A stretch of 64,000 bases of DNA, taken from Terriglobales bacterium. GTDB taxonomy: Bacteria > Acidobacteriota > Terriglobia > Bryobacterales > Bryobacteraceae. The stretch lies in assembly GCA_021372245.1 (NCBI GenBank), contig JAJFUV010000135.1:1-64000 (forward strand), in the 5' to 3' direction. The translations under genes were made by a program, and so were the position numbers. Below, one piece after another: positions 24,238 to 42,381 of the stretch (within the stretch, counting starts at the first letter, position 1; each line of letters opens with the position of its first letter). The notes under the pieces are model-generated. The model had not been told where the DNA came from and made no database searches. It worked only from the letters and a program-made list of their open reading frames with translations.

Positions 24238-25256
24238 CTCCCTTTGTTCATCTGGCGCAAAATGGCTGCCGGAATCTGATTGATGGACAACGTTTCCGCG
24301 GCTGCACCGAGTTCCACCGCGGCGCGCGGCATGCCGTAAACAACCGAAGTCGCTTCGTCCTGTGCCAGAGTCCACCAGCCTGCCTTGCGGAGACCGAGCA
24401 ACCCCTCTGCACCGTCACGTCCCATTCCGGTCAGCAGGCACGCCACTCCGGGCTCCGGCCAAAATTGACCCAAGCTGTAAAAGAACTCATCTACTGAAGG
24501 GCGATACGGGTAATCCTCGGGTTCGCGCGTGTAGTGAAACGATTGGTCGGCCCCGATCACCAGATGGTCGCTGGTTCCCGCCACATACACCCGTCCCGGT
24601 TCGGGCTTCTCACCATCACGGGCCAAGGCGACAGGAAGTTCGGTCTGCTCGCCAAGCCAGTCCGCAAGCCCGGTGGCGAACTGGGCGTCGAGGTGCTGCA
24701 CGATTGCCACCGCGGCGTCGACTCTCGGAGGCAATCCCCGCAAGACCGCGGCCAGCGCCTTCGGGCCTCCCGTAGATGCTCCTATCCCGATCAGCCGCTT
24801 TCCGCGCGACACCGCCACTGGTGGCACAGACGGCTCGGGGACAGGCGCGGACAGTTTCGTTTGCCCGATGATCCTGCCGATAACCGCGATCTTGCGAAGC
24901 AGGTCTTCGCCGCCCTCGATGCCACCGGTCGAGCCGAAGACGGGCGTACACACCGCATCCAGCGCCCCGCAGCCCATAGCCTCGAAGACTTTCGATGCGT
25001 TGCCCGAAACCGTCGCCGTGACCACCAGGATGGCGCACGGCGACTGTTTCATAATCGAGCACGTCGCCTGCACGCCGTCCATAACGGGCATGATCAGGTC
25101 CATCAGAACCAGATCCGGGCGATCGCGCACACACTTTTCTACAGCTTCAACACCATCGGCCGCGGTCCAGGCGACCTGGTAACCGGGTACGCTCCGAACC
25201 AACCTGCGTAAGACCTCGACGGCAAGAGGCAGGTCGTTCACGATGGCGATGCGCAT
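24234..25256 (-). CDS. cheB: Chemotaxis-type methylesterase CheB (WspF-like)
   Basis: The 340-aa protein has a receiver domain (1-120, phosphoacceptor Asp53 in VLMDLIMPVMDG) and a CheB methylesterase domain (about 152-335). The catalytic triad candidates are Ser161 (GASTGGPKA), His188 (QHLDAQF) and the Asp in GMGRDGAEG. It removes methyl groups from the receptors and so resets signalling. In the Wsp system the homologue WspF sits at this position, between the CheA hybrid and the output regulator. It shares its start base with the cheA stop. Confidence 0.95.
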   Translation of the reverse strand: MRIAIVNDLPLAVEVLRRLVRSVPGYQVAWTAADGVEAVEKCVRDRPDLVLMDLIMPVMDGVQATCSIMKQSPCAILVVTATVSGNASKVFEAMGCGALDAVCTPVFGSTGGIEGGEDLLRKIAVIGRIIGQTKLSAPVPEPSVPPVAVSRGKRLIGIGASTGGPKALAAVLRGLPPRVDAAVAIVQHLDAQFATGLADWLGEQTELPVALARDGEKPEPGRVYVAGTSDHLVIGADQSFHYTREPEDYPYRPSVDEFFYSLGQFWPEPGVACLLTGMGRDGAEGLLGLRKAGWWTLAQDEATSVVYGMPRAAVELGAAAETLSINQIPAAILRQMNKGR

Positions 25257-27898
25257 CAGCTTTCGGCCTCCTCTATGAGGTCCCGGACCGTCTCCACCAG
25301 AGTTTCATCATGGAAGCTGCTCTTGGTCAGGTAGCACGCCGCGCCGGCCTCGAGTCCCTTCAGCCGGTATTCTTCCTGGTCCTTGTAAGAAACGATCACC
25401 ACCGGAATCGCGGCAGTGTGCGGCGCACCTTTGATCCGCTTCACCAGTTCGATGCCATCCATGCGGGGCATGTCGATGTCGGTCAGCACCAGGTCGAAGT
25501 GCGAATTCTGGGCTGCGTTCCACCCGTCCATTCCGTCCACAGCCACTGTGACGTCATAGCCTCGATTCTCCAGCAGACGCCGTTCGACTTCGCGTACGGT
25601 CAGCGAATCGTCGACCACCAGCACGCGCCGGCGCCGCGACGTCTCCGCCTTCTCCCCTTTGTCCAGCTTCATCAGACTTCCACGCGTGAGCAGGTTGTCG
25701 ATGGACCGCACGAGATCCTCGCTGTCCAGAATAGCGATGGGTGAGCCGTTTTCCAGAATCGCGCCCGCTGAAACGTTGGGGACTTTGCCCAGGCGGCTCG
25801 GCAGCGGGATCACGACCAAATCGTGTTCTCCGATCAGCTTGTCCACCACCAGGCCGTGGCGATTGAGCCGGTCGCTGAGTACCACCACCTTCAAATCGCC
25901 GGCTGTCCTTGGTGCACCCGGCATATCGAGCACCTGGGAAGCTTCCACCAACCCGATGTTCAGGTCGCCCATGCGGATGTACTGCCGCCCTTCGACCACC
26001 AGGATGTCCACCGGTGTCACGTTCATTACGCTGTCCACGCGCGTAAGCGGCAGCGCGTATGGCTGCCCCTTCACGTCGAACATCAGGGTTCGGATTACCG
26101 ATAGGGTAAGCGGAAGCTGCATGATAAAGCGCGTGCCCTGGTTCAGCCGAGTTTCGATTCGTACGCTTCCGCCGACCTGCCGCGCCATGATCTGCACGAC
26201 GTCCAGGCCCACGCCGCGGCCCGAGATCTCCGTCACGCCCGAGCGAGTTGAAAATCCCGGCAGAAAGAGAAAGTCGAGCACTTCGCTCTCGCTGAGCTTG
26301 GAGGCCATCTCCGCCGTCGCATGGCCGCGCTGGGCTACCTGGCCACGGACACGTTCGACATCGATGCCGCCGCCGTCATCGGTCACCACGATCTCGAGCA
26401 CGCCGGAAACGTGTCGTGCGCTCAACTTGAGCAGCCCTTCGGGCGGCTTGCCGGCCGCGACTCGCGCCTCGGGCGATTCCAGCCCGTGATCCACGGCGTT
26501 GCGGAGGAGGTGCGTCAGCGGAGCTTCGAGTTTCTCCAGGATGTCCCGGTCGACGCGCGTTGCCTCGCCTTCGATCTCGAATCGCACCAACTTCCCGAGC
26601 GACTTCGCCAGGTCGCGAACCATGCGCGGGAATCCATGCAAGCCGTCCGAGAAAGGCCGCATTCGACTGGCCACGGCTTCGTCGTAGAGCCGGTTGGCCA
26701 GGTGCTCCAACTTGCGGGAAAACCGTTCGAACTCGGTCAGGTATCCGGGGATCGCACGGTGAATCCACGCGGCCTGTTGGAATGCTTCTTCCAGGCGCGC
26801 CACAGCCTCGGCGATCCGCTCTTTTCGCAGCGCCTCCATGGTCTGTTCGACCGCGTTGCCCAGCGCCGTGTGGTGCTGCTTGATCCGTTGTACTGTCTGC
26901 GTGAGCGGACGCAGGCTCTTCACTTCTACCAGGCACTCACCCGCATATCCGGTCAGCCGGTTCAGGTTCTCCACCGACACGCGCACCGATGCCACGTCGG
27001 ATTTTTCAACGGTGGCCTTGGGCGCAGGCGTAGGTGCCTGAACTGGAGCCGTGGCAGGAGCCGGGCCGGATGCTGGCGCAGGCGATGGGCTTCTGAAGCA
27101 GCCGATCAACTCTTCAATCCGCTCGGATTGCTCGGCCAACGCGTCCGGGATTCGCTCCGGCTCGCAGGCGGCCAGACCCAGGAAGACATCGTTCGAACGG
27201 AGCAGTAGATCGAAATCCGCCTCCACCAGCCGCCGGCTCCCCTTCTGTGCCGCCGACAGCAGGTCCTCCATGGCGTGAGCGAGTCTTACAGCGCTGTCCA
27301 GACCTATGATCCGGGAAGCGCCTTTGAGCGAATGAGCCGCCCGCATCAATGGCTCGATCTTTTTCGGGTCCTGACTGGTTTCGGTCTCCACCAGTCCGGC
27401 CTCGATCACCCGCGAGTGCGTTTCGAGTTCCGTGCGGAACAGACCGAGCAGAAAGGAATCGACCGGCGCGGCCGCCTTAGCGGCAGGTTCCACTCGCACA
27501 GGCTCCGGCGGAGCAGGTATTTCGGCCATCTCCTTCGACAACCGCTCGATGTCGTGCGCCCGGCCTTCCAGCGCGTTAGGGATTTCCGCTGCTTCGCACG
27601 CTACTAGTTCCCGAAACAACACCGCTGACTCAAGCAACCGCGCGCGCGTCGCCGGGCCCATTGAGCCCGCGCTCAGCGCCTTTTCCATCGCCCCGGCGAG
27701 CGCGGCAGCATGGTTCAAACCCACGATCTTCGCCGCACCCTTTAGCGAGTGCGCCGCGCGCGTCATGGCTTCAATCCTACGGGGATCCTGGCACGACGGC
27801 TCGTCCGCCAAGCCGGACTCCAACACGCGCGAGTGCGTTTCCAGCTCAGTGCGGAACAGGTCCAGCAATGTGAGATCCGTGCCAGGATCGTTCACCAT
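25256..27898 (-). CDS. cheA: Hybrid histidine kinase CheA with two Hpt domains and a C-terminal receiver (WspE-like)
   Basis: The protein is 880 aa. Two Hpt domains (about 1-125 and 148-265) carry His50 and His189 in AAHSLKGA. They are internal duplicates sharing the 12-residue string LFRTELETHSRV. A Pro/Ala linker follows, then the dimerisation region and a GHKL kinase core with HLLRNAVDHGLE, DDGGGID and GRGVGLDVVQ. A CheW-like regulatory domain and a receiver domain (about 755-880, Asp807 in LTDIDMP) complete it. There is no P2 (CheY-binding) domain. The domain order fits the WspE class, in which the receiver modulates the kinase and the REC-output protein is the real target. It overlaps the CheW gene upstream by 7 bp. 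Confidence 0.95.
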   Translation of the reverse strand: MVNDPGTDLTLLDLFRTELETHSRVLESGLADEPSCQDPRRIEAMTRAAHSLKGAAKIVGLNHAAALAGAMEKALSAGSMGPATRARLLESAVLFRELVACEAAEIPNALEGRAHDIERLSKEMAEIPAPPEPVRVEPAAKAAAPVDSFLLGLFRTELETHSRVIEAGLVETETSQDPKKIEPLMRAAHSLKGASRIIGLDSAVRLAHAMEDLLSAAQKGSRRLVEADFDLLLRSNDVFLGLAACEPERIPDALAEQSERIEELIGCFRSPSPAPASGPAPATAPVQAPTPAPKATVEKSDVASVRVSVENLNRLTGYAGECLVEVKSLRPLTQTVQRIKQHHTALGNAVEQTMEALRKERIAEAVARLEEAFQQAAWIHRAIPGYLTEFERFSRKLEHLANRLYDEAVASRMRPFSDGLHGFPRMVRDLAKSLGKLVRFEIEGEATRVDRDILEKLEAPLTHLLRNAVDHGLESPEARVAAGKPPEGLLKLSARHVSGVLEIVVTDDGGGIDVERVRGQVAQRGHATAEMASKLSESEVLDFLFLPGFSTRSGVTEISGRGVGLDVVQIMARQVGGSVRIETRLNQGTRFIMQLPLTLSVIRTLMFDVKGQPYALPLTRVDSVMNVTPVDILVVEGRQYIRMGDLNIGLVEASQVLDMPGAPRTAGDLKVVVLSDRLNRHGLVVDKLIGEHDLVVIPLPSRLGKVPNVSAGAILENGSPIAILDSEDLVRSIDNLLTRGSLMKLDKGEKAETSRRRRVLVVDDSLTVREVERRLLENRGYDVTVAVDGMDGWNAAQNSHFDLVLTDIDMPRMDGIELVKRIKGAPHTAAIPVVIVSYKDQEEYRLKGLEAGAACYLTKSSFHDETLVETVRDLIEEAES

Positions 27899-28554
27899 CG
27901 CAAGCTCCCATCCAGGGTCTCGAATAGCTTCCGTTCGTAAATCAGACCGACGTGCCGCCCGTCTACCTCAAAGCATGACGCAGTCTGCGCCGCAGGCGAC
28001 TTGGCAAGCGTGGCCGGTACGGTCTGTAGACGTGCAGCCGGTACGCGCCTGACACCCAGGATCTCGTCGGCGCGGAAAACATACCGTTCCCGTCCCGTGC
28101 CTATTACACACAAGCGTGGCCTGCCTTCCGCTCCGGAGGCCTCAGCCCGATCCACCTCCAGGATTCGTTCGAGCGAAACGTACAAAAGCAGCTCGCCGTT
28201 CACGTTCGCCAGGCCCGCAAGAATTCCGTTGCATCGGTATGGCAGGCGGTACGGCGGCTGATCTTCGGCGATTTCGTGAAAGACTACGCTGCGCAGGGCG
28301 AACCATTCCGATGCCAGACGGAATACCAGAACCGAGACGGCGTCCTCCTCATGGGCGGCTTTGGCTGCCGCCAAGTCCTTGGATATCTCGCGCCGGTAGT
28401 TGGCCGGCATCTCCCGATCAAAGAGTGTCCGGCCAAGCAGAGAATATTCCGGGCAGTTGCGGCAATGTACATGCCGGCGAAGCTCCGGACACGAACGGTC
28501 CCCCTCGATGCCGATTTCGCGCCAGCACAAGACGTCGTTCTTCGAGGCCATCAT
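27892..28554 (-). CDS. CheW-like adaptor with cysteine-rich N-terminus (WspD-like)
   Basis: The protein is 220 aa. The start is ATG 28554, which overlaps the cheR stop (ATGA); a longer frame to 28653 lies in cheR. An N-terminal extension has Cys10, Cys22, Cys31 and Cys34 in CWREIGIEGDRSC and HCRNCPEYS, a pattern I associate with WspD-type adaptors. It may bind a metal. A CheW fold follows (about 80-220, VLVFRLASEWFALRS). It should couple receptors to CheA and is the second of two adaptors in the cluster. Confidence 0.9.
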   Translation of the reverse strand: MMASKNDVLCWREIGIEGDRSCPELRRHVHCRNCPEYSLLGRTLFDREMPANYRREISKDLAAAKAAHEEDAVSVLVFRLASEWFALRSVVFHEIAEDQPPYRLPYRCNGILAGLANVNGELLLYVSLERILEVDRAEASGAEGRPRLCVIGTGRERYVFRADEILGVRRVPAARLQTVPATLAKSPAAQTASCFEVDGRHVGLIYERKLFETLDGSLRW

Positions 28555-29768
28555 GCAGTCTCCATGGCGCCATGCAATTGCTGCCACTCGAACGCCCTGC
28601 CCGCACGTGCGCGATAGCGCCTGCTGCCGTCGGCATCTCCCCGGCGGTCGCAAAGGAGGCTCATGTGCAGCAGCGACTCATAGTGGTGCGGATCCAGATA
28701 AAGCGCTGTGCGGAACATCTCCTCGGCAGGCTCGAACTGGCCATTGGTTTGATCGATCACCCCGAGTAAAGCGTAGGTCTCCGCTTCCTGTATTCCTTGC
28801 GCGACCAGGCGTTCGCAGATGGCGGCTGCCGCGGCGAGATCTCCCCGGTCGGCCAACTCTTTCGCACGCACAAGCTCCTCGGTGGGTTCCACCCGCTGAA
28901 CGGTGGCGTGCGCATGCAGGTGCGCGCGCCTGACCTTGCGCTGGGCGTGCCTGTGGACTTCCGGGTGAACCGCCTCGGACGATGCTGCGCCCTTCATGCA
29001 AGCGAAGCCGCGCTCATGCTCCACACGGAACCAACCCGCCTCCAGGAAAAGCATCAACTCGGAATGTCCCACAAACAGCAGTCCGTCATCGCTCACCAGA
29101 TCGCGGAGTTCGGTGATCGCGTGGCGCCGGGCGACGGTCGTGAGGTAGATAAGCGCGTTGCGGCAGAAGACAGCGTCGTAAGGACCGCGGCTCCGGTAAG
29201 CGCTGAGATCCAGCAGATTGGCCTGCTCGAAGCGCACTAATCCGGAGACTTCAGGCCGGATTCTCAGGCCGTCCTTACACGGCTCGAAGTAGCGAAGAGA
29301 GGCGGTTTCGTCCAGCCGGTTGCGGAACGACGTCTTGCGGTAAAGCCCTTGGCGGGCCTGTTCGAGGGCTGCACCGCTCACGTCAAGCGCATCGATCCGG
29401 ATGCGATCTGCCGGCAGGGCGGCTTCGAGCAGCGTGATAGCTACCGAGAATGGCTCTTCTCCTGTCGCGCACGCGACCGACAGCACTCGAAAAGGTCCCG
29501 CGGGGTTCGCTGGCAACCATTTGCCGGTCACATGAGCCGCCAGCAGCCGGAAAGGCTCCACATCGCGGAAGAACCAGGTTTCCTGCACCGTAACTTCGTC
29601 CACAAGACGCTGCCATTCGGCGCTGTCCGCGTCGAGCGTTCCGACGCTCTGCTCCCGCTTCCCGAAGATAGAATCCAGGGCGCGCTTCACCAGCTGTTCG
29701 TTCAGCAGTTCGGGCAGCAGCCCCAGCCGCTCATCGAGCAGCGCAATCGCCCTGTCCGCGGGTTTCAT
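28551..29768 (-). CDS. cheR: Chemoreceptor methyltransferase CheR with C-terminal TPR repeats (WspC-like)
   Basis: The protein is 405 aa with start ATG 29768, overlapping the upstream CheW stop (ATGA). The methyltransferase domain covers about 1-260, with ETWFFRD, the SAM-binding VACATGEEPFSVA and the CRNALIYL motif. A basic linker is followed by TPR-like repeats (about 310-395; ELADRGDLAAAAAICERL, EAEEMFRTALYLDPHHYESL). CheR-TPR proteins are typical of Wsp and other alternative-function chemosensory systems. The TPR part probably mediates contact with the receptors or the adaptor. Confidence 0.94.
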   Translation of the reverse strand: MKPADRAIALLDERLGLLPELLNEQLVKRALDSIFGKREQSVGTLDADSAEWQRLVDEVTVQETWFFRDVEPFRLLAAHVTGKWLPANPAGPFRVLSVACATGEEPFSVAITLLEAALPADRIRIDALDVSGAALEQARQGLYRKTSFRNRLDETASLRYFEPCKDGLRIRPEVSGLVRFEQANLLDLSAYRSRGPYDAVFCRNALIYLTTVARRHAITELRDLVSDDGLLFVGHSELMLFLEAGWFRVEHERGFACMKGAASSEAVHPEVHRHAQRKVRRAHLHAHATVQRVEPTEELVRAKELADRGDLAAAAAICERLVAQGIQEAETYALLGVIDQTNGQFEPAEEMFRTALYLDPHHYESLLHMSLLCDRRGDADGSRRYRARAGRAFEWQQLHGAMETA

Positions 29769-30226
29769 CTCGCCTCCGGTTCGGGGAACAGCCGCGCCTG
29801 TACGTCCGCCGGGAGTAGCTCGCGCACCGTCATTCGGTGTATCAGGCGTCCTCCCGCGTCGCACGTGCCGATGAGGTACGGCGCCTCCGGTATGACGACC
29901 TTGGGCGGCGCCATTCCGGATTCATCCAGATCGATGGTCTCCACGGCCTTCTCCGCCACCAGCCCGAGCGGACATGTCTCTCCGCCCGGCCTCGCATATT
30001 CCACGACAATCAATCTTGTGCTCAGCAAAGCCGGCGCCGGTTTATCTGTCAGAAGGGCCGACAGATCCACAACGGGGATCGTAAGCCCGCGCCAGATAGT
30101 CAGCCCGGCAGCCCACCGCGGCGCGTGCGCAAGCGGCGTGCAGTCCGGGTAGGGAGCAACCTCGAGCACAGAGCGTACATCAAGCCCGTAGGTTTCGTTG
30201 CCGGCCTGGAATACCAAGAACAGCAC
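29765..30226 (-). CDS. CheW-like adaptor (WspB-like)
   Basis: The protein is 153 aa. The start is placed at GTG 30226, giving MLFLVFQAGNETYGLDVRSV, the normal beginning of a CheW domain, 8 bp after the MCP stop. A longer frame to 30376 would overlap the receptor gene by 140 bp and adds no recognisable sequence. The upstream ribosome site is weak, so the exact start is uncertain. It overlaps cheR by 4 bp. Its position directly after the receptor matches wspB. Confidence 0.88.
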   Translation of the reverse strand: MLFLVFQAGNETYGLDVRSVLEVAPYPDCTPLAHAPRWAAGLTIWRGLTIPVVDLSALLTDKPAPALLSTRLIVVEYARPGGETCPLGLVAEKAVETIDLDESGMAPPKVVIPEAPYLIGTCDAGGRLIHRMTVRELLPADVQARLFPEPEAR

Positions 30227-30233
30227 GTTCGTA

Positions 30234-32309
30234 TCAGGACGCCGTTGAGAAGCGTCCCACCTCCGCCTGCAGTTCGCCGACGGCCCTATGCAAATCCTCG
30301 GCGACCTTGCGGAATTCAGCGAGTGCAACCCTGGTTTGGCTCGCCGCATCGCGCAAGTGCAACATAGACTCGGCAATCTGGCCGGCTCCCTGCGACTGCA
30401 TCTGCATGCCCATGTTCACCGACTCGAACTCCGGCCCAAGCCGCGTGGTGCCCTCGATGACTTTGCCCAGTCCTTCGCTCAGCTCAGCGACCGCCGCCGA
30501 GCTGGCTTCAGTTCTCCGTGTATAGGATGCGATGCTCGCCATGCCATCCCCCACCGCATGCTGCATATCGCGTATCTGCCTTTCGATGTCCAGCGCGGCG
30601 ACCGCTGTCTGATCGGCGAGACGCCGCACCTCGAGTGCCACCACGGAGAATCCGCCTGCCTTGTCTCCTGCCTTCTCCGCCTCGATGGCGGCGTTGAGCG
30701 ACAACAGGTTCGTACGGTTGGCGATCTTGGTGATGCTGGTAATGACTTTGTCAATGTTCCCGGCCTTCTCCTGGATAGCCTCGAACGAACGCATCATGGA
30801 CTGGCTGGTTTCGACCAGCATATCGATCGCGGCGTGAATGCCCTGCAAGCTGCCGACCCCGCCGTGGGCTGTCTCGGCCGCCTCCGTGGCCATCCCGGTC
30901 ACCGACTGCATGGTTTTGGCCAGGTCGCGGGCTGTAACGTGGATCTGCTTGCTGGTTGAGCTCACTTGGTTGGTGGAGGCAGCCTGCTCGGCCACGGCCG
31001 CTTCGAGCTCGCTGACGGTGGAAGAGGTCACGTTGGCGCTGCCTGCCACCTGGCCGCACGCCGCGGTCACTTTGGCCAGCAGCGTGTTCAAGTTTCCGGT
31101 CATGGTGTAGACCGATTGGATTAGCCCGAAGGTCTCGTCACGCACCTCCTTGCTCGCTTTCTCGATAGCGAACAACTCGCGGAAATCGTCATCGTGAAAC
31201 CGGTCCATCGCCTCCTTCACGCGGCCGGCCGCAATGCGGGTCGTCAGATCCACTACTTTCGCCAAGGGACTCGTGATGTTACGAACGACGAGCGCCATCA
31301 CCCCCGCCGCAAGTGCAACCGAAAGCAGGCTTAGCAGAAGCGCCAGGGCTCGGCTGCGGCGGCTGTCCGAAATACGCTTTTCCAGCAGTGTCCGTAATTC
31401 CGGAATGGCCGCGCCCGCGAACGCCGTGCCGTAACTCTCAGTCTGGGCGGCGGTACGCACAATCTTGTCCGTGGTGAGATTCGAGTCCGTCATATCGGAG
31501 AAGCGGCTTAATTGATCTGACAGCTCGGTCAGCGAACTGAGGTAACGCTCGCATAGTGGAGGGAGCACTTTCTGCAACGTAGGACTGAGCCCGTGGAACG
31601 TGGCGTCCTCTTGGAGGGCGATCGCCAGAGCCCTGCGCATGCGCGGGACTAATGTCCCACTCAATAGCTCACCCTGCGTTTGCAGCACGGCCAGATCGCG
31701 TTGATCGATGCGGCCTTCCACACCGCTGCGCAAGGCGACTAACCGGGCCTGTGCAGTCGCTGTCTGCGCCCGTGCCAGGAGCAATCCGGTGAGCTCTACC
31801 AGATAGTAAGTGTCCATCTCAGGGTCCGTCACCAACCGATACTGGTCGAGTGTCACCGGAACAAGCTGGTTGGAGGTCTCGATCAACAACCGGTAGGTCA
31901 TGGCGCGCTCGCGGACCGTCATGGCCCGGTTGGGATCGCGGAATTGCTTCCACAGCCCCGCCATCTTTTCGACAAGCTCTTTGACGGTGGGGTCGGAAAA
32001 CCGGTCAAGGGCCTTGATAGTGCTGTCTACGCGCTTGCTCGCATCCTCCAAACCGCTGTCGGTCACGCGGGCGCCTTCATTGGCGAGGTATGACCACAAC
32101 TGCAGCCGGCGCAGGTCGGCCAGCAGAACCGGAAGCCGCTCAAGTGCGTGACTGCCGACAATCTCGTGCTCGGTGGTGCGAATCCCCTGGCTGAAGCTCG
32201 CCACGGAAAAGTACAACAGAACCGCGATAGGCAGGGCAAAGACAGCGCTGCTGAGAATCAGTTTGTGCGCGATCTTGAGGCGCGCAAGATACAGGTTGAT
32301 GCGGTGCAC
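30234..32309 (-). CDS. Methyl-accepting chemoreceptor with large helical periplasmic domain (WspA-like position)
   Basis: The protein is 691 aa. Helix 1 is near 15-36, followed by a periplasmic region of about 280 residues that looks mostly helical with no Cache signature. Helix 2 lies near 325-345, then a HAMP segment ([21 protein letters not shown]) and a long cytoplasmic signalling coil. The kinase-contact hairpin is [20 protein letters not shown]. The C-terminal end resembles that of the second receptor ([20 protein letters not shown]), so both belong to one receptor class. There is no C-terminal pentapeptide for CheR docking, consistent with the TPR-type CheR. It is separated from the upstream receptor gene by 11 bp. 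Confidence 0.93.
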
Positions 32310-32320
32310 GTCGCCTCCCG

Positions 32321-34534
32321 TCAGCTGGCCGTCCGGAATCGGCTCACTTCGCCCTGAAGCCCCTGCACCGCGCCGGTCAACTGACCGGTCGCCTGCTGAA
32401 ATTCGCTCAGCAGAGCCTTGGTCGATTCGGCCGTTTCCGCCAATTGCTTCATGGCTTCGTTGATTTGCTGCGCGGCCTGGGTTTGCGAGTTCATCCCATC
32501 TTTGGCCGTCTCAAATTCCGGTCCGAGCGTCTGCACCTTCTCGATCATTCTCCCAAGCGCGCTGGCGATGGCATTCACTTCGCTGACCCGCCGGCGCACC
32601 TCTTCGCTGAACTTGTCCATCTCCATCACGCCGCTCGACACGGCCGACTGCATCTCTTTTACCACCGAGTCGATGTCCTGCGTCGCCACCGCGGTTTGAT
32701 CCGCCAACCTGCTGACTTCGCGCGCCACGGCCGAGAAGCCCTTGCCAAATTCGCCAGCCTTTTCAGCTTCGATAGCAGCATTCAGCGAGAGCAGTGCGGT
32801 CTGATCGGAGATCTTGTTGATGGTGGTCACTACAGTCGAAATCTTGCTTGCACGGTCGCTAATCACGCCCAGGCGCGAGGAAATCGAGCCGGTGGCCTTC
32901 ACCAGTTCACGCATGGCATTTTCCATTTCACTCAGTTCGCTCTGGCCCGATTCCGCCTGTTCGACCGCTTCCCCCATGGCATCGCTCGCGCCGGACATCG
33001 TCCGCATCAGATCGCGCGATGTCGCCGAGATCTGACTGCTGGTGGCGGAAACCTCACGCGTGGCGGCCGCCTGTTCGGCCACGGTGGCCTCCAATTGCTT
33101 GGCTGAAGCCGTGATCTCCGTGGCGGAGGTGGTCACCTGGATGCCGGACCGCTGCACCTGCCCGATCAGGCCGCTCAGGTTCTTGGTCATGTCCTCGAAA
33201 GAGCACATCAGGTCTTCGCTTTCGTCTGGGAAGTCGAAGCGATTCCAGCGCGAAGCTTCCCTATGGGAGCGGTGGACCGAAAACTCCGCCTGGGCGCCCT
33301 GCAAATCACCTCGCGCGACCTGTCCGGCGATCTTCGTCGCCAACTCGATGGGGCGCGAAACGCGGCTGCCCATGACGAACGCGATAATGATCGCCGCGCC
33401 TAACGAAAGAATCCCGCCTCCGGTCACACCCCAGAGCAGGCTTGTAAGCGACGATTCGACCTGATTGACCGCCCCGAAGTACTCGTCGTCATAGGCGCTC
33501 GCGTTGATCAGCCAGTCCCACGGTTCGAAATAGATGAAGGCCGCGCGTTTCATCCGTTCTTGTGTCTCGCCGGGGTTCTTCCAGAAGTAGGAGGCGTGGA
33601 AAACCTCTCCATTGCCCAGCGATAGCGCCTTCTGAATGTGCGGCTGGACTACCGGCTGACCTGAGGCGTCCCGGGCCTCCCAGATGTTTTCACCATCGCG
33701 TTTACCGTCCTTCGAAATGATGTAGCGGCCGCGGCGAATGCCCTTGCATCCGAGGACGATGATGTGTCCCGTACGGCCGACCGTAGTGTCGAGGATCGTG
33801 CGGCGCAGCGCCTCCGCCGAAGAGATGCGCTCGCCCACAGCGATCAGACCGATGACCTTGCCACCGCCGTCACGCAGAGGCTCGTAGGCGGCGACATACC
33901 AGTCGTCAACCACAAGGGTGCTGCCACGGAAGGTCTCGCCGCGCAACACTGCGGACACCATAGGCGAGGGTGTCCCGTCTGGACCGATGGCAGGTACGTA
34001 AGTGCCGACCGCGCGGCCGCCAGAGGGCGTGCGCACGGTGGAGGCCACCCGCAACATGTCGCCCTGTTCGTTCATCCGCTGAAAGACGGAGATCACACCG
34101 CCAGTGACGCGGGTGACTTCGTCTACCATCGGGGACTCGCCTTGCGCGCCTCGGTCCGGCGTGGCCGGCGTGCCGCCGATCGTCATCCGCGGCAACGATA
34201 CCGCCGCGGTTTGCTGCGTCGCCTGGTTGGTTACCTGCCATGTGACCTGCCCGCCCCCAACCACAACTCCGCCCCTCTGCCCCACCAGCCTGCGCGCGAT
34301 CAACAGATTCTGGTTTACCTGGCGCTGCAACAGACCGTTAGCCGTTTCGCACAGGCCGTAGATATCCTTCGCCGTTTGCTCAACGTTCGCAAAAGCCAGC
34401 GCGGTAAGCTCCTTGCTCGCCTTTCGCGTGACGCTGGCGCGGAACTGGATTGTTAACAGCAGTAGAACAATAACCGGCAGGACCGCTGCCACTGCCGCCA
34501 AGCCGTATATCTTATTGCGTAGCAAGATTCTCAC
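32321..34534 (-). CDS. Methyl-accepting chemoreceptor with Cache3/Cache2-type sensor, first gene of the cluster
   Basis: The protein is 737 aa. I start at GTG 34534 because GGAGGGGAACC is positioned right before it and the membrane helix ([16 protein letters not shown]) follows directly; a frame to 34618 adds a basic 28-residue tail. The periplasmic part (about 35-370) resembles the Cache3-Cache2 fusion sensors ([40 protein letters not shown]). A second helix, a HAMP domain and a signalling coil follow, with [20 protein letters not shown] at the kinase-contact tip. Cache domains usually bind small molecules, so this receptor may read a soluble ligand, unlike classical WspA. Confidence 0.93.
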
Positions 34535-34654
34535 GGTTCCCCTCCGCGTCCTGCTGGAACGCTGTGGACTTCTTCGCCGCCGGGGCGATGCAGATACAAG
34601 CGACTCATCAGGTCCCATGCACCTAACATTGGTGGCCGTCCTCAGGCTTCGGCC

Positions 34655-34754: not shown

Positions 34755-36740
34755 ATGAATGCCATGACAAATTTCCTCCGACGTCTCTCGCTAGGGATAG
34801 TCTTGATTTGCCTGGTTTCCGCCATTTTGCTCGTGTCCGACTGGAACCGGAGGTCGGCGGGCAAGCAGAAGTTACCCCGCGTTGCCCTCTTTCAGTTTGC
34901 CAGCCGTCCCTTGCTAGATGAGGGTTCTGCCGGGGTCATCGAGGCCTTGAAGAGCCGCGGATTTGTTCCGGGCCAGAGCATCCAGATCGATCGTTACAAT
35001 TCCGAAAACGATCTTCCCACCGCCAACAGTATCTCGCGGGCTATCGTTGACGGGGGTTACGACCTGGCTATTACTGTCAGTACTCCCTGCTTGCAGTCAT
35101 TTGCCGCCGCCAACAAAGCCGGCAAGGTGACTCACGTCTTTGGCTTGGTCACCGACCCGTTTGCCAGCGGAGTGGGCCTCGACCGCGAGCACCCGGATGT
35201 GCACCCCCGCCACCTCGTCGGGATCGGGACGTTCCAGCCGGTACGCGACGCTCTCACTTACGCCAAAAGATCCTTCCCGGCGCTGCGCCGCGTGGGAACG
35301 GTTTGGAACCCGGCCGAAGCCTGTTCGGAAGCTTGCATGAGGGTGGCGCGAAGGACTTGCAAGGAACTGGGCATAGAACTCTTGGAGGCGCAATCCGAAA
35401 GTTCCACGGGTGTCGCGGAGGCGACGAACTCGGTAGTATCCAGGGGTGTCGAGGCGATCTTCATCGGCGGCGACAACACCGTGGAGATGTCCATCAAGTC
35501 CGTAATCAGGGCCGCTGATGAAGGCCGTATCCCGGTCATTGGTTGCGCGCCGGGACACGCGGAACTGGGTGCTTTGATCGGTCTGGGAGCAGACTACTTC
35601 GAGGTCGGCCGGACCGAAGGAGAGATAGCGGCTGACGTGCTCGCCGGCAAGGATCCCGCCAAGATACGCATCGGTGACGTGATGCCGCAGAAACTTGCGC
35701 TCAACCTTTCCGTGATCTCCCGGCTGCGGAACCGCTGGTCGGTTCCCCAGGACGTAGTGGATCGGGCCGTCATTCGCATCGAACCTGATGGCCGGCGTTG
35801 GGAGAAAGGCCGGACGGCGCCGGCTGCCGCGCAGGCTTCGGGCCCCATCGCAAAGAAGTGGAAGATTCACCTGATCGAGCTCATCAACGCGCCGTCCATC
35901 GATGAGACACGCGACGGCATCCGCCAGGGCCTCAAGGAGGCCGGCCTGATGGAAGGGCGCGACTATGAGCTGAAAGTCGGCAATGCGCAAGGAGATCTCC
36001 CCACTCTCAGCGGCCTGGTCGACGCGGCCATTACACAACAGGCTGATATGGTCTACACCATCACCACACCGGCCTTACAGACGGCCATGCGGAAGATCCA
36101 GGACCGCCCGGTGTTGTTCGCGCTGGCGCTCGATCCGTTGCTGGTAGGGGATCGCGGCACGCACGACAAGCATCGCCCAAACGTGGCGGGCGTTTACGAC
36201 CGCAGCCCGTTCGAAGAGATGCTGAAGCTCGTTCGCGAGTGCCTCCCGAAAGCTCGCTCAATTGGCACGCTCTATGCCCCGTCCGAATCCAACTCGGTTC
36301 AGTTTCGCGCCGAGTTGGAGAAGGCCGCGAGGACAGCCGGGCTGCAACTTGTGGCGCTCTCCTCCAACTCCGCGACCGAGGCAGCGGATGCAGCCGCCGC
36401 CCTGACCCAACGCGGCATCGACGCTATTTGCCAGATCAACGACAATCTGCACGGCGCGGCGTTCCCGGCCATCGTGGCTGCGGCGCGCCGGGCCAAGTTG
36501 CCGGTGTTCAGCTTCAGCACGGGCCAGATCTCGCAAGGCGCCGCCGTCGTGCTCTCCAACGACCACTTCGATGGCGGCCGGGAGTCTGCGCTGATCGCCG
36601 CGCGGGTGATGCGCGGCGAAAGCCCCTCGTCGTTCCCCTACCGCGGGATCGCGAAAACCCGCCTTCTCATCAACCGCGAAGCCGCCTCGCTCGCCCGGTT
36701 GACTATTCCGGAATCCGTCGCGCGCCGCGCCGAAAAGTAG
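34755..36740 (+). CDS. Tandem (two-domain) membrane-anchored ABC_sub_bind protein
   Basis: The 661-aa protein contains two complete substrate-binding domains. The N-terminal anchor LSLGIVLICLVSAILLVSDW (no lipobox Cys) matches those of the proteins at 17066-18145 and 18165-19157. Domain 1 (about 40-345) is closest to the 17066 protein (RVALFQFAS, ENDLPTANSISR, ITVSTPCLQ). A linker of about 25 residues rich in Ala/Gly/Pro is followed by domain 2 (about 370-655), which is closest to the 18165 protein (IGTLYAPSESNSVQ, ISQGAAVVLSNDHFDGGRES, LLINREAA). It looks like a fusion of the two single-domain types. It is transcribed divergently from the receptor genes. It could present two ligands to one transporter or act as a sensor co-receptor; both ideas are inference. 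Confidence 0.9.
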   Translation: MNAMTNFLRRLSLGIVLICLVSAILLVSDWNRRSAGKQKLPRVALFQFASRPLLDEGSAGVIEALKSRGFVPGQSIQIDRYNSENDLPTANSISRAIVDGGYDLAITVSTPCLQSFAAANKAGKVTHVFGLVTDPFASGVGLDREHPDVHPRHLVGIGTFQPVRDALTYAKRSFPALRRVGTVWNPAEACSEACMRVARRTCKELGIELLEAQSESSTGVAEATNSVVSRGVEAIFIGGDNTVEMSIKSVIRAADEGRIPVIGCAPGHAELGALIGLGADYFEVGRTEGEIAADVLAGKDPAKIRIGDVMPQKLALNLSVISRLRNRWSVPQDVVDRAVIRIEPDGRRWEKGRTAPAAAQASGPIAKKWKIHLIELINAPSIDETRDGIRQGLKEAGLMEGRDYELKVGNAQGDLPTLSGLVDAAITQQADMVYTITTPALQTAMRKIQDRPVLFALALDPLLVGDRGTHDKHRPNVAGVYDRSPFEEMLKLVRECLPKARSIGTLYAPSESNSVQFRAELEKAARTAGLQLVALSSNSATEAADAAAALTQRGIDAICQINDNLHGAAFPAIVAAARRAKLPVFSFSTGQISQGAAVVLSNDHFDGGRESALIAARVMRGESPSSFPYRGIAKTRLLINREAASLARLTIPESVARRAEK

Positions 36741-36749
36741 CAGCTTAGG

Positions 36750-37403
36750 CTAGCTCCAAAACTTGAGGTAGGGCTGGGGATCGGGAAAGTCCTGCTGCAA
36801 CGAGCTACACGCGGCAGGGGGGCCATATCCGTCGAGTTCGTGGAAACGCTCCAGCAGGATTTCGTGGAACAAGCCCGACCGAATGCACTGCACGTGCAGG
36901 TGCGGATGCCAGTTGCCATTGTCTGGTGGGCCGCCTACCTCAGTGAAGACTTCGCCAGGCTCCAGGGCCTGGCCGGGACGCACTTCCACGTTCTGCAGGT
37001 GGGCATAGATCAACACCAGCCCTTCGGTGGCGAGGAAGACGCGTGTTCCCCAGCCGCCGTCGCGGTCGGGGTCATGGTCAACCAGTATGACTTTGGCCGG
37101 AATATCCACCGCTACCCGAGTCCCTTGTGGGACCGTGCAATCGACACCCAGGTGCAGGAAGTTCCCGGTAGCCTTCAGATAGCTTTCGCGCAACAGATGG
37201 CTGCGGTCTTCCAGATAGCCGCCACAAGACCACACTACGCCGCAACGTCTGTGAACCTCGTCCATCATGCGCTGGCAGACGGTGGGGTCCAGAAGCGGGT
37301 TCCCCTCTCCGGCGAACAAATCGGGATGCTCGAGGTTCCAGCGGACTGCCTCGGCATCCAGATTCACGTAACAGTATGTCTGGCCCCGCAACTCGGGAAA
37401 CAT
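36750..37403 (-). CDS. M23/LytM-type metallopeptidase-like protein
   Basis: The protein is 217 aa. Metal-binding residues of the LytM fold are visible: HLGVD (the HxxxD motif), an HLQ segment and the late HPHLHVQ motif with its catalytic HxH. Family members cleave peptidoglycan cross-bridges. Here there is no signal peptide or membrane segment, so either export is unconventional or the domain has another role. The start codon overlaps the upstream stop (TGATG), so it is translationally coupled to the RsbW-GNAT protein. The coupling of a cell-wall-type hydrolase to a partner switch is unusual. Confidence 0.8.
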   Translation of the reverse strand: MFPELRGQTYCYVNLDAEAVRWNLEHPDLFAGEGNPLLDPTVCQRMMDEVHRRCGVVWSCGGYLEDRSHLLRESYLKATGNFLHLGVDCTVPQGTRVAVDIPAKVILVDHDPDRDGGWGTRVFLATEGLVLIYAHLQNVEVRPGQALEPGEVFTEVGGPPDNGNWHPHLHVQCIRSGLFHEILLERFHELDGYGPPAACSSLQQDFPDPQPYLKFWS

Positions 37404-38899
37404 CAGATCGTGCTGACCGGATCGAGCGCCCGGATGTACGCCAAAAGTTCCTTGGCCACCTCAGAATACGCCGCAATCTTGCTGTAGTCGAGATCGACGT
37501 TGTTCAGATACTGCAGGATCAGGGTGTCGCCAACGCGTGCGCACGGCAGGATACCGGCGAAGAAGAAACCCAGCTTTTCGAATTCCTGCGTCAGGAAGAA
37601 GGTGGCCGGATCCTCCAGATTCAGGAACAGGTTGATAGCCGCTACCTGCTGAAGGCAGAATCCACGGAGCAGTTTGCGAACCTCCTGGACTACACCTTCG
37701 CCATAGCGGGCCACGAAGATCTCGGCGCAGCCTTCGGCCGGGTTGACACTACTCAGAACTTTCGGTTCGCCGGTTACCGGCGGCTGTAACGCTGGCGTTT
37801 CAAACTCGTGCTCCGCGCCCAAGGTGCGATAGAGCTTGGCCACCATGTCGCGATGATGGGCCGGCGGGTATAACGTCAGGGATCGGGGCGTTTCCATGTA
37901 CCTGAAGGCCAGTACCACGCTAATGCGCTGCGATGGGTCCCCAGGGATGCCTTTGAATTTCCAGCTTCTCGGGCTGGTAGCCAGCAGGATGCCGATGTCG
38001 TTGAAGCCCCCCCGCACCAGGGCCTTCTGAGTAAAGACGTGGTTGGCGACCGCGTAGGCATAGACTCCGGCGAACTCGCGGGATTTCCGTGTGGTGACGA
38101 GGAAATCGTTGAGTCTGGTGAGAGCTCCGTGCCCGCGGTACTCCACGTTCACAAAGGCGAACGTCAGTTCAGCGATGCGGTCCTCCGGGTACTGGTACAG
38201 GAGCGCGGCATGGCCCATGAACACGTTGCCCTCGGTGACCGCCACCGCGGAGATCATGTCACCTTTCCGGTTCAACTCCACCAGGCGCTCCGGGTAATAG
38301 ATGTGGTCGTCAAAGAAGGTATACCCGTGCGATTTGTAAGCGCATCGGGAGATCTCGATGGCTTCCTCCTCCCGCATGAGCCGCACGCTGTAATTGATCT
38401 TCTCCGTAATTGCGGCGGGTTCTGCGATGGGATGCGGTTCGACAACCGTTGTTTCGCCGGGGGCCTCGGCCAAATACTTGACAAGGTGCGTCTCCTTGCC
38501 AAGGGGACCGAGGTTGTGGAACGAGCACTCGTCCATCATGGTCTTCATCAGGAAGACGCCCATGCCGGCCGACTCGCCCGGCCGGTACTTGGGTATGTGG
38601 GTAGGATCGAAAGGCATGCCCGTTTCATGGATGATGATCCGGATGCCACCCGGAAGCCGTTCGCAGATGATATCGAAGGTCCGGCTTTCTTCGGCGTCAT
38701 AGCCGTGCTGCATCACATTGGTGACGGCTTCTTCCACGGCCAGTTCGATCTGGCTCAGGCTGGGGCCCTCAAAGCCGAACTGGGTGGCCGATCCCCGGAC
38801 GAACGACTGCGCCAAGGGCAAGTACGGCATCTCGTTGGGCAGGGTCAGCTTCAGCGACGCTGACCGCGGTTCGGCAACGGCGGCATCAGCGTGGCTCAA
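37403..38899 (-). CDS. RsbW-like ATP-binding domain fused to a GNAT acetyltransferase-like domain
   Basis: The protein is 498 aa. I use TTG 38899, which has GGAGG six bases upstream and overlaps the STAS gene by 14 bp; the frame to 39028 adds non-conserved sequence. Residues about 10-140 are an HATPase_c_2 anti-sigma-type domain (LAVEEAVTNVMQHGYD, HETGMPFDP, AGMGVFLMKTMMD). Residues about 165-330 look like a GNAT N-acetyltransferase (MREEEAIEISRCAYKSHGY, AFVNVEYRGHGALTRLNDF). Residues about 330-498 form a further region that may be a second degenerate GNAT-like domain. It likely phosphorylates or binds the STAS protein encoded just upstream, perhaps controlling acetyltransferase activity. Confidence 0.82.
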   Translation of the reverse strand: MSHADAAVAEPRSASLKLTLPNEMPYLPLAQSFVRGSATQFGFEGPSLSQIELAVEEAVTNVMQHGYDAEESRTFDIICERLPGGIRIIIHETGMPFDPTHIPKYRPGESAGMGVFLMKTMMDECSFHNLGPLGKETHLVKYLAEAPGETTVVEPHPIAEPAAITEKINYSVRLMREEEAIEISRCAYKSHGYTFFDDHIYYPERLVELNRKGDMISAVAVTEGNVFMGHAALLYQYPEDRIAELTFAFVNVEYRGHGALTRLNDFLVTTRKSREFAGVYAYAVANHVFTQKALVRGGFNDIGILLATSPRSWKFKGIPGDPSQRISVVLAFRYMETPRSLTLYPPAHHRDMVAKLYRTLGAEHEFETPALQPPVTGEPKVLSSVNPAEGCAEIFVARYGEGVVQEVRKLLRGFCLQQVAAINLFLNLEDPATFFLTQEFEKLGFFFAGILPCARVGDTLILQYLNNVDLDYSKIAAYSEVAKELLAYIRALDPVSTI

Positions 38900-39218
38900 G
38901 GGCCGCCTCCACGGAATCATAAACCTTGAAGAGGGCCGAGAAACCGGCCATTTCGATGACGTCCTTGACGGTACCGCGCAAACCACTGAAACCAAGGACC
39001 CCGCCAACTGACTGGATCGTCTTACCAACCAGAAGGATAGCCCGGAGTCCGGCGCTGCTTATATACTCCACACCCTCAAGATCCAGTAACGCTTTCCGCG
39101 TGTCAGGTTTGATGCACTGCTGGCACGTCTTCTCGAATTCCGGCGACGTGATGGCGTCCAGGCGGCCGTCAACACGGAGCACCACAGCATCGCCGGCATA
39201 GTTCGATGTTATCGTCAT
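38886..39218 (-). CDS. STAS-domain anti-sigma factor antagonist
   Basis: This is a 110-aa SpoIIAA/RsbV-type STAS protein. I start at ATG 39218, preceded by GGGGGAGC; a longer frame to 39431 crosses the likely promoter. The phosphorylation-site region is LEGVEYISSAGLRAILLVG. It is the first gene of a three-gene unit with the RsbW-GNAT fusion and the M23-like protein. It is related to the STAS gene at 22240, which raises the chance of cross-talk with either PP2C phosphatase in the window. Confidence 0.92.
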   Translation of the reverse strand: MTITSNYAGDAVVLRVDGRLDAITSPEFEKTCQQCIKPDTRKALLDLEGVEYISSAGLRAILLVGKTIQSVGGVLGFSGLRGTVKDVIEMAGFSALFKVYDSVEAALEPR

Positions 39219-39252
39219 TGTGCTCCCCCGTAACCTTGGAATTACGAGACCG

Positions 39253-39281
39253 ATTATATGCCGCTGGTGCTCATCCGGCAA
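39253..39281 (-). promoter_or_regulatory. Candidate sigma-70 promoter for the STAS/RsbW-GNAT/M23 unit
   Basis: On the minus strand, -35 TTGCCG (39276-39281, four of six matches) and a perfect -10 TATAAT (39253-39258) are separated by 17 bp. Transcription starting near 39246 would give a leader of about 28 nt before ATG 39218. Confidence 0.5.
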
Positions 39282-39414
39282 TAAGAAAGCGAAAGTGTAT
39301 GAACCGCGTCCCGCCGCATCGTCCGCAACACAGCAATCCGCCGGCTGAGGGCCGGGTAAAGGTCCAAGTATCCGTGAACTTGATTCAGAGTTACACTTAC
39401 TTAACTGTCCGGAC

Positions 39415-39423
39415 TGGTATACT
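39415..39423 (+). promoter_or_regulatory. Candidate extended -10 promoter for the GPP34-oxidoreductase gene
   Basis: TGGTATACT fits an extended -10 element (TGn followed by TATACT). No good -35 is seen 16-18 bp upstream, as is common for extended -10 promoters. The predicted start near 39430 leaves a leader of about 42 nt before ATG 39472. Confidence 0.35.
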
Positions 39424-39471
39424 GACGCCAAACAGGATGCGCTCCAGCTCTTTTCAGAGTGAGTTCATGCG

Positions 39472-42381
39472 ATGAGTAAGCAGCTCTCTTTTTCCGAAGA
39501 ACTGATCTTACTGATGGTGGACGACAGCACTGGGCACCTGCGTCCTCTTCCCGAAAAGATCCTTGCGAGCGCGCTGGGAGGCGCTTTTTTGCTTGAGTTG
39601 GCTTTCGCCGGCCGTATCGACAACGATGCCGAAAGCGTTTTTCTGGTGGACACTGCCCAGACGGACAACGCGGTGCTGGATGCCGTACTGGAAGACCTTG
39701 CGGCGGAAGGTTCCCCGCTCTCTTTGGCGCGCGCACTGACTCTGGCGTGCACAGAGGCTCCCGCCGGCGTGAAGTTCGTGTTGGACAACCTCATCGCAGG
39801 CGGCACGCTCCGCGAGATTTCGGCGCCGGAATGTCCAGCCGACAAGCGCCGCTACCAGAATACCGATCCGCGCGTCGTGGAGGACCTACGCCAGCGTGTG
39901 CGCCAGCTTGTACTGTCCGCGGACGCGCTCCCCGATCCCCGCGATGTCGTGTTGCTCGGCCTGGTGGAGGCTTGTGAGTTAGCCCCTCAGCTCTTCAGGC
40001 CGCAGGAATTGTCGTCGTCGGCTGAGCGCCTCCGCCGGCTGGCCGGCCTGGAGTTTTTCAACCAGGCTGTGTTCGCCGCGTTACGCAGTTTTCAGGAGGC
40101 ACCGTACGAGCAGATCGCCGAATGGCTGATCGGCACGCGCTACGAGACGCCGCGCGTGGTAGCGGGGGGGCGCGAGGCTGTCCTGGCCGCTATAACGAGG
40201 ATCTATGAGGAAGCTGGCTGGATGCGTGGCTCAGCGGCACTCACGAGAATCAATCAAGTAAACGGATTTGACTGTCCTGGCTGCTCCTGGCCGCATCTGG
40301 GGGACAAGCGCAGCCGTTTCGAATTCTGTGAGAACGGTGCCAAGGCGCTGGCATCGGAAGCGACCCTCCAGCGTATTGGTGCCGAGTTCTTCCAACGCTG
40401 GACTCTCGCCGAGTTGGCGGACCAGCCCAACGAGTGGTTGGAACGGCAGGGACGGTTGATGCAGCCACTTTTGCAGCGCCCCGGCGCGGCGCATTATGGG
40501 GCGATCACCTGGGAAGCGGCATTCGACATCATCGCCAGAGAGCTGAATAATCTGAATGCGCCCGATGAGGCCGCCTTCTATGTGTCGGGCCGCACCAGCA
40601 ACGAGGCGTCTTTTCTGCTACAGCTCTTTGCCCGGCAGTTTGGCACTAATAATCTGGCCGGAAGCGCCAACCTCTGTCACGAGGCTTCGGGGATGGCCTT
40701 GCAGCAGGTGCTGGGCTCCGGCAAGGGGACGGTGCAACTGGAAGACCTGGAACACTCCGACCTCGTGCTCATCTTTGGTCACAACCCCGGATCGAACCAT
40801 GCCCGTATGCTGGAGACTCTCCAGCAAACTGTCCGAAACGGCGGCCGGATCGTAGCCATCAATCCGCTCCCCGAAGCGGGACTGATCGGTTTCGCCAACC
40901 CGCACGAGGTCCTGGGGATACTGGGCCGAAGCACATCCCTGGCAGCGCGGCGCCTGCCGGTGCATATCAACGGGGACCTGGCACTGGTCAAAGGCGTGAT
41001 CAAGGCCGTCCTGGATGAGGAGTCGCGCGCGCCGGGCACTGTGCTCGACCACGATTTCATCCGGCGCTACACGACGGGGTTTGAATCGATGCAAGCCGCG
41101 CTGGCCGGCATCAGTCGCGAACGGATCGAGGCGCAGAGCGGCATTGCGTGGGCACAAATCCAGGAACTGGCGGGCTGGTACATCGAAGCGCGCTCTGTTG
41201 TGGCCGATTGGGGCCTCGGTATCACACAGCAGAGCAATGGCGTGGCCACGATCCGCGAGATCGTCAATCTTTTGCTGCTGCGCGGAAACCTTGGCAGGCC
41301 CGGCGCGGGAGTCTGTCCCGTGCGCGGGCACAGCAATGTTCAGGGCAACCGCACCATGGGAATCGGTGTTCGTATGTCCGTCGAGTTCCTTGACGCACTG
41401 GGCACCGCTTTTGACTTCCAACCGCCTCGCCACACGGGCCTGGGAGCCATCGATGCCCTCCAAGCCATGCACTCGGGCAACGTGAAAGTCTTCATCTCCA
41501 TGGGAGGTAACCTCCTGTCTGCAGCGCCGGACGCCGGATTCGTGGCGGAAGCGATGCGGCGATGCCGGCTGACAGTGATGGTTTCCACCAAGTTGAACCG
41601 GAATCACGCCGTCACAGGTGAGCAGGCGCTCATCCTGCCGTGCTTGAGCCGGAGCGAGATGGATCGGTGCGATGGCGTCGAGCAGTGGCTAACCGTGGAA
41701 GACACCACGGGACACGTCCACCGGTCCCACGGCTGTCTAGAACCGGCCGGCCCGGAACTGCGTGGCGAGCCCTGGATCGTCGCCGCGATGGCCCGAGCCG
41801 TGCTCGGGGATCGTTCCCGGGTGCCGTGGAGCCGGTTGGGTTCAGACTACCGGTTGATTCGAGAGGAGATCGCCCGCGTTGTTCCAGACTTTGCGGACTT
41901 TAACCGCCGTGTAATGGAGCCCGGAGGTATGTGCCTTTCCAATCCTGCCCGAGAGCGTCGCTTCAACCTGCCCGGTGGCCGGGCCCGGTTCACGGTACAA
42001 ACAATGGACGAAGGGCGCCTCGCATCCGGTCAATTCCTCCTGACGACGCTGCGGAGCCACGATCAATTCAACACCGCGGTTTTCGGCCTGAACGACCGTT
42101 ATAGGGGGATACGCGGCGAGCGGCGCGTGGTGTTCATGAATCCCCAGGACATGCAGCAACTGGGGATTGTTCCGGAGCAGTTGGTTGACTTGGCAGGCGT
42201 GGAACCAGGGCGGCCAAGGTGGGGCCGGGGCTTCCACGCGATACCTTACAATATTCCCCGCGCCTGCGCAGCCGCTTATTTCCCGGAAGCGAACACCGTC
42301 ATTCCGATCTGGAATGTTGATCCCGAAAGTGGTACGCCTGCGAGTAAAGCGGTACCCATAACCATCCGGCCTGCCGGATAG
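39472..42381 (+). CDS. GPP34 (GOLPH3-like) domain fused to FdhF/YdeP-type molybdopterin oxidoreductase
   Basis: The protein is 969 aa. Residues about 5-210 match the GPP34 (GOLPH3/Vps74-like) pattern: LSFSEELILLMVDDSTGHL, ALGGAFLLELAFAGRID and the helical region ending DVVLLGLVEACEL. From about 225 it is a YdeP/FdhF-like oxidoreductase, with the family start LTRINQVNGFDCPGCSWP (Cys268, Cys271), FCENGAKA, NLCHEASG (Cys402), DLVLIFGHNPGSNH, RGHSNVQGNRTMG and a C-terminal molybdopterin-dinucleotide domain (TTLRSHDQFNT). YdeP proteins are normally about 760 aa, so the extra length is the GPP34 part. There is no Tat signal, so it is cytoplasmic or membrane-peripheral. The substrate is unknown. The reading frame is continuous across the junction. 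Confidence 0.87.
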   Translation: MSKQLSFSEELILLMVDDSTGHLRPLPEKILASALGGAFLLELAFAGRIDNDAESVFLVDTAQTDNAVLDAVLEDLAAEGSPLSLARALTLACTEAPAGVKFVLDNLIAGGTLREISAPECPADKRRYQNTDPRVVEDLRQRVRQLVLSADALPDPRDVVLLGLVEACELAPQLFRPQELSSSAERLRRLAGLEFFNQAVFAALRSFQEAPYEQIAEWLIGTRYETPRVVAGGREAVLAAITRIYEEAGWMRGSAALTRINQVNGFDCPGCSWPHLGDKRSRFEFCENGAKALASEATLQRIGAEFFQRWTLAELADQPNEWLERQGRLMQPLLQRPGAAHYGAITWEAAFDIIARELNNLNAPDEAAFYVSGRTSNEASFLLQLFARQFGTNNLAGSANLCHEASGMALQQVLGSGKGTVQLEDLEHSDLVLIFGHNPGSNHARMLETLQQTVRNGGRIVAINPLPEAGLIGFANPHEVLGILGRSTSLAARRLPVHINGDLALVKGVIKAVLDEESRAPGTVLDHDFIRRYTTGFESMQAALAGISRERIEAQSGIAWAQIQELAGWYIEARSVVADWGLGITQQSNGVATIREIVNLLLLRGNLGRPGAGVCPVRGHSNVQGNRTMGIGVRMSVEFLDALGTAFDFQPPRHTGLGAIDALQAMHSGNVKVFISMGGNLLSAAPDAGFVAEAMRRCRLTVMVSTKLNRNHAVTGEQALILPCLSRSEMDRCDGVEQWLTVEDTTGHVHRSHGCLEPAGPELRGEPWIVAAMARAVLGDRSRVPWSRLGSDYRLIREEIARVVPDFADFNRRVMEPGGMCLSNPARERRFNLPGGRARFTVQTMDEGRLASGQFLLTTLRSHDQFNTAVFGLNDRYRGIRGERRVVFMNPQDMQQLGIVPEQLVDLAGVEPGRPRWGRGFHAIPYNIPRACAAAYFPEANTVIPIWNVDPESGTPASKAVPITIRPAG

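Follow-up and report, generated by a model that had tools for sequence, protein, structure and literature searches.

The window, a stretch of 64,000 nucleotides from a Terriglobales bacterium, contains an open reading frame in which a GPP34 domain is joined to a molybdopterin oxidoreductase of the FdhF/YdeP type (Table 1). The frame begins with ATG and has zero internal stops. In the Pfam search the N-terminal domain passes the gathering cut-off of PF05719 along the whole profile (105.6 bits against a cut-off of 29.1, E 4.6e-30, profile positions 3-195 of 201), and no further GPP34 occurs in the genome. The remainder of the protein matches the NCBIfam model TIGR01701 over positions 2-743 of 744 with 813.7 bits (cut-off 582.15). 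Within this half Pfam identifies Molybdopterin (PF00384, residues 328-706) and Molydop_binding (PF01568, residues 855-960). The original prediction, which placed GPP34 over about the first 210 residues and a full YdeP/FdhF-like enzyme behind it in the same frame, is borne out on both points. Both partners are complete and meet at a short linker. Nothing at the junction points to a frameshift or chimera, which the original prediction had named as a risk, because G+C and GC3 are equal on either side (0.622/0.731 and 0.622/0.721), the frame stays open, and the contig continues to 78.3 kb. The fusion is a real and new domain combination, known from a single genome, which is a draft assembly of 368 contigs with a contamination estimate of 5.28%.

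Table 1. Features of the fusion gene and its surroundings (coordinates in the window)
Feature	Coordinates	Strand	Basis or remark
Double ABC_sub_bind protein	34755..36740	+	Relative (35% identity) in GPP34/STAS cluster of locus L132
RsbW-like HATPase_c_2 protein, 541 aa as longest ORF; true start probably later	37403..39028	-	Pfam
STAS anti-sigma-factor antagonist, divergent neighbour of fusion gene; start approximate	38886..39224	-	TIGR00377
Intergenic region between divergent STAS and fusion genes	39225..39471	.	One sigma-70-like match, facing STAS
Fusion CDS, N-terminal GPP34 + FdhF/YdeP-type molybdopterin oxidoreductase, 969 aa	39472..42381	+	ORF, Pfam, NCBIfam
GPP34 domain PF05719, residues 9-201	39496..40077	+	Pfam
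Region of GOLPH3 membrane/dimerisation beta-hairpin, approximate limits	39808..39849	+	Alignment
Short inter-domain linker, ~17 residues (about residues 206-222)	40087..40137	+	Domain limits; free homologues of the enzyme start near residue 217-233
TIGR01701 Fdhalpha-like oxidoreductase, residues 231-967	40162..42372	+	NCBIfam
Cys268, Cys271, Cys286 (CxxC...C), probable iron-sulphur ligands	40273..40329	+	Inferred
Cys402-His403, aligned with Sec140-His141 of E. coli FdhF	40675..40680	+	Alignment
Arg618, aligned with Arg333 of E. coli FdhF	41323..41325	+	Alignment

The genes of an RsbV/RsbW-type module, a STAS antagonist and a HATPase_c_2 kinase, adjoin the fusion gene directly upstream on the opposite strand. 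The STAS protein scores 79.8 bits with TIGR00377 (cut-off 53.45), and the HATPase_c_2 match lies above the Pfam cut-off and below the RsbW equivalog cut-offs. At its C-terminus the latter protein is extended by about 350 residues, which are GNAT-like to the eye but have no Pfam or NCBIfam match. STAS has seven matches at about six places in this genome, so the chance that the fusion gene adjoins one is roughly 12 in 5,500, or about 0.2%, by a simple count of two neighbours per STAS place that assumes about 5,500 genes. A chemosensory cluster, identified by reading, occupies positions 23026-34618 of the minus strand and includes a response regulator with a phosphatase-like part, CheB, a CheA hybrid, a CheW-like protein, CheR, and two methyl-accepting proteins. 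It sits between two groups of STAS, HATPase, and ABC_sub_bind genes (17-23 kb and 34.7-39.4 kb).

The oxidoreductase half retains all of the formate dehydrogenase H-type catalytic residues. In the alignment Cys402, His403, and Arg618 stand opposite Sec140, His141, and Arg333 of E. coli FdhF, the catalytic residues of its active site. The three cysteines near the start of the enzyme are probable iron-sulphur ligands, and Cys286 is common to close homologues only. The protein scores 628 bits with NF007406, the equivalog model for E. coli-type YdeP, and does not reach its cut-off of 1473. The wider FdhF/YdeP family of TIGR01701 includes E. coli YdeP and the P. putida proteins PP_0256 and PP_4596, which have been tied to formate oxidation and tolerance (PMC10308882). 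The fusion protein resembles this family in its full-length profile match above the cut-off and in the Cys, His, and Arg residues. It differs in having GPP34 at its N-terminus, which none of the other members searched has, and in that its genome has no match to FdhD. FdhD is missing from six of the nine genomes that have relatives of the enzyme, suggesting that it is not strictly required. In G018, G279, and G622 fdhD adjoins an FdhF/YdeP-type gene, while FdhD was not found in other genomes with a close enzyme relative (G085, G135, G326, G256, and G572), including some that are 97-100% complete.

The GPP34 domain belongs to the GOLPH3 family but lacks the features with which GOLPH3 binds membranes. 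A profile of 19 bacterial GPP34 domains, including that of the window, matches human GOLPH3 with an E value of 6e-25 and yeast Vps74 with one of 6e-23; the match to GOLPH3 places the family assignment well beyond chance. GOLPH3 is a peripheral membrane protein that binds PI4P through W81, R90, R171, and R174 and inserts a hydrophobic beta-hairpin (residues 190-201) into the bilayer (PMC12494035, PMC13408441). When these residue roles are transferred by alignment, the window domain has P, G, P, and V at the four positions, so all four PI4P-binding residues are substituted. The hairpin is shortened and polar (SAPECPADK), while other bacterial GPP34s have a hydrophobic LWVF-type strand there. The domain thus has neither of the two characters of a GOLPH3-type PI4P effector, so that it is unlikely to bind membranes in the known GOLPH3 manner. 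The phosphoinositide-style recruitment put forward in the original prediction is not upheld, although recruitment of the fusion to the membrane by a route other than PI4P is possible. Compared with GOLPH3 and Vps74 (PDB 3kn1 and 2zih), the window domain also differs in being the N-terminal part of an enzyme. AlphaFold2 models had low confidence and were unfit for a fold search, with a mean pLDDT of 39.5 for GPP34 alone and 46.9 for the whole fusion with five homologues.

A second fusion of GPP34 to a molybdopterin enzyme was found in none of the genome sets searched. GPP34 was searched in 297 genomes of the phylum, 250 of the order, and 399 of the class. Searches with the full fusion protein covered 60 relatives, 396 genomes of the phylum, and 237 of the family; all these sets overlap. 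Close homologues of the enzyme (46-54% identity) have alignments that begin at about query residue 217-233 or later, with the sole exception of G645, which aligns from residue 198 on and has an N-terminal extension without a match to GPP34. In G535, G645, G461, and G018 long frames upstream were considered as further fusions of this kind and rejected, since no GPP34 match lies inside them. A scan of viral contigs gave no GPP34 relative, and a tblastn search of plasmids with the window GPP34 domain gave no matches. The same plasmid search with an operon-type GPP34 found actinobacterial and cyanobacterial free-standing copies. In two of these plasmid neighbourhoods that were read no STAS gene adjoins GPP34, and one of them has a STAS gene about 4.6 kb away.

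Free-standing GPP34 genes in the window's own family are part of what is, from its gene order, a conserved partner-switching operon of HATPase_c_2, STAS, and GPP34. In each of the 15 own-family genomes whose free-standing GPP34 is of the typical kind, the stop codon of a STAS gene overlaps the start of GPP34. This rule covers the operon clade; a divergent family copy in G455 (L146) lacks a neighbouring STAS gene. In 12 of the 15 there is also an adjoining RsbW-like HATPase_c_2 gene. The same overlap, mostly following an RsbW-like HATPase_c_2 gene, was seen at L122, L132-L145, L151, L173, and L174. Outside the family STAS and GPP34 are adjacent in G081 (11 bp), in one f53 genome, and in the f7 genomes G722 and G710. 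The window resembles the own-family operons (for example L134 and L137) in that GPP34 adjoins STAS and an RsbW-like kinase. In the operons, however, GPP34 stands alone and overlaps STAS, whereas in the window it forms part of a fusion and runs divergently from STAS.

Three GPP34 architectures were found in the phylum, namely the free-standing form, a fusion to cytochrome P450, and the fusion of the window. The P450 fusions carry GPP34 at the N-terminus, and the P450 assignment of representatives was checked with Pfam. Their 34 GPP34 domains form one clade, lying on one side of a branch with support of 99/97 in the maximum-likelihood tree. The clade spans several families of the phylum (L047, L048, L052, L059-L066, L069, L072, and L118-L131). 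Among the loci examined, genes for KshA-like Rieske oxygenases were found at three (L060, L061, and L069) and efflux-system genes at L069, L061, and L131. The window domain lies outside the clade, beside the free-standing GPP34s of G081. By the AU test its joining the P450 clade is rejected (p 0.011), while its joining the own-family operon clade is not rejected (p 0.25). Its branch is long (1.5), so its exact position is uncertain. These results support the window fusion as an event separate from the GPP34-P450 fusion. The P450 fusions (for example L059 and L069) are like that of the window in having an N-terminal GPP34 on an oxidoreductase. They differ in catalytic domain and in GPP34 clade, and none of them has a STAS neighbour. 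Searches of open-access literature turned up nothing relevant on GPP34 with P450 or with anti-sigma factors; mention elsewhere is possible.

The gene order and the fusions point, tentatively and with a little less than an even chance, to GPP34 as an N-terminal docking or regulatory module on a formate dehydrogenase-like enzyme, linked to STAS/HATPase partner switching. The gene would encode a cytoplasmic enzyme of two modules. The C-terminal three quarters would belong to the FdhF/YdeP group as a bis-MGD oxidoreductase with molybdenum (or tungsten), and would most likely oxidize formate or another small acid by way of Cys402, His403, and Arg618. The GPP34 domain would carry out no chemistry itself and would keep the enzyme docked to a partner, which the adjoining STAS/RsbW-type pair most likely controls. 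Docking may occur on the membrane's inner face, though not through PI4P. The docking reading is favoured because of the STAS-GPP34 operons, the STAS/HATPase neighbours of the fusion, and the GPP34-P450 fusions. It is weakened in turn by the divergent orientation of the STAS gene, which is not in an operon with the fusion, by the P450 fusions having no STAS neighbour, and by the long branch and eroded hairpin of the window domain, which may be losing its function. The formate dehydrogenase part is weakened by the lack of an FdhD match in the genome. As no second genome among those searched has the fusion, selection on it cannot be shown. In the best reading, the GPP34 module has been recruited at least twice onto oxidoreductases.

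Direct lipid tethering ranks first among the rival explanations, ahead of a decaying passenger and then an artefact. GPP34 could bind lipid headgroups or membrane proteins directly and place a soluble dehydrogenase within reach of the quinone pool, with the STAS genes nearby reflecting co-regulation only. GOLPH3 is itself peripheral to membranes (PMC12494035, PMC13408441), and the KshA-like Rieske oxygenases beside GPP34-P450s at three loci suggest hydrophobic substrates. The window domain, however, has neither the PI4P residues nor the hydrophobic hairpin, and no transmembrane segment was found in the fusion protein (best 19-residue hydropathy average 1.5). Tethering is an unlikely explanation, if a credible one. 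It is improbable that the fusion is an evolutionary accident, in which read-through united two genes and left GPP34 on the enzyme as a decaying passenger without a role. The fusion is a singleton with a long GPP34 branch and an eroded hairpin, in keeping with such an accident, but a passenger of this kind tends to become truncated or lost, and the domain still scores 105.6 bits across the profile in an intact frame with a GC3 equal to that of the enzyme half. An assembly or binning artefact that joined two genes from different places is very unlikely. It would fit a single draft genome of many contigs with some estimated contamination, but the join is in frame between two complete domains of equal composition, and it lies inside a 78-kb contig beside the STAS/HATPase genes expected for GPP34.

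Bacterial GPP34 proteins are widespread but almost unstudied, and fusions and operons are the usual way to a first functional hypothesis for a domain. The sole experimental paper found in the open-access literature is on Streptomyces coelicolor, where the GPP34 protein SCO4440 affects peptidoglycan and wall-deficient cells (PMC12402492). SCO4440 differs from the window protein in that it stands alone, without an oxidoreductase, beside a D-Ala-D-Ala carboxypeptidase gene (PMC12402492). The original prediction stands in its domain assignment, in the fusion, and in its relevance to bacterial GPP34 function, and falls in its phosphoinositide mechanism. While the molybdopterin fusion was found in this genome only, GPP34-P450 fusions and STAS-GPP34 operons recur in relatives, and they tell more about bacterial GPP34 than the window fusion itself. 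Fusions and operons agree in presenting GPP34 as an N-terminal module with ties both to oxidoreductases and to partner switching of the stress type. They further suggest that the GPP34 family as a whole does not share GOLPH3's function of binding PI4P. A doubtful but broader idea is that GPP34 is the output domain of RsbV/RsbW-type partner switching, a phosphorylation switch setting the location of the proteins that bear it. If this were true, fusion to a molybdenum dehydrogenase or a P450 would place redox enzymes directly under the switch.
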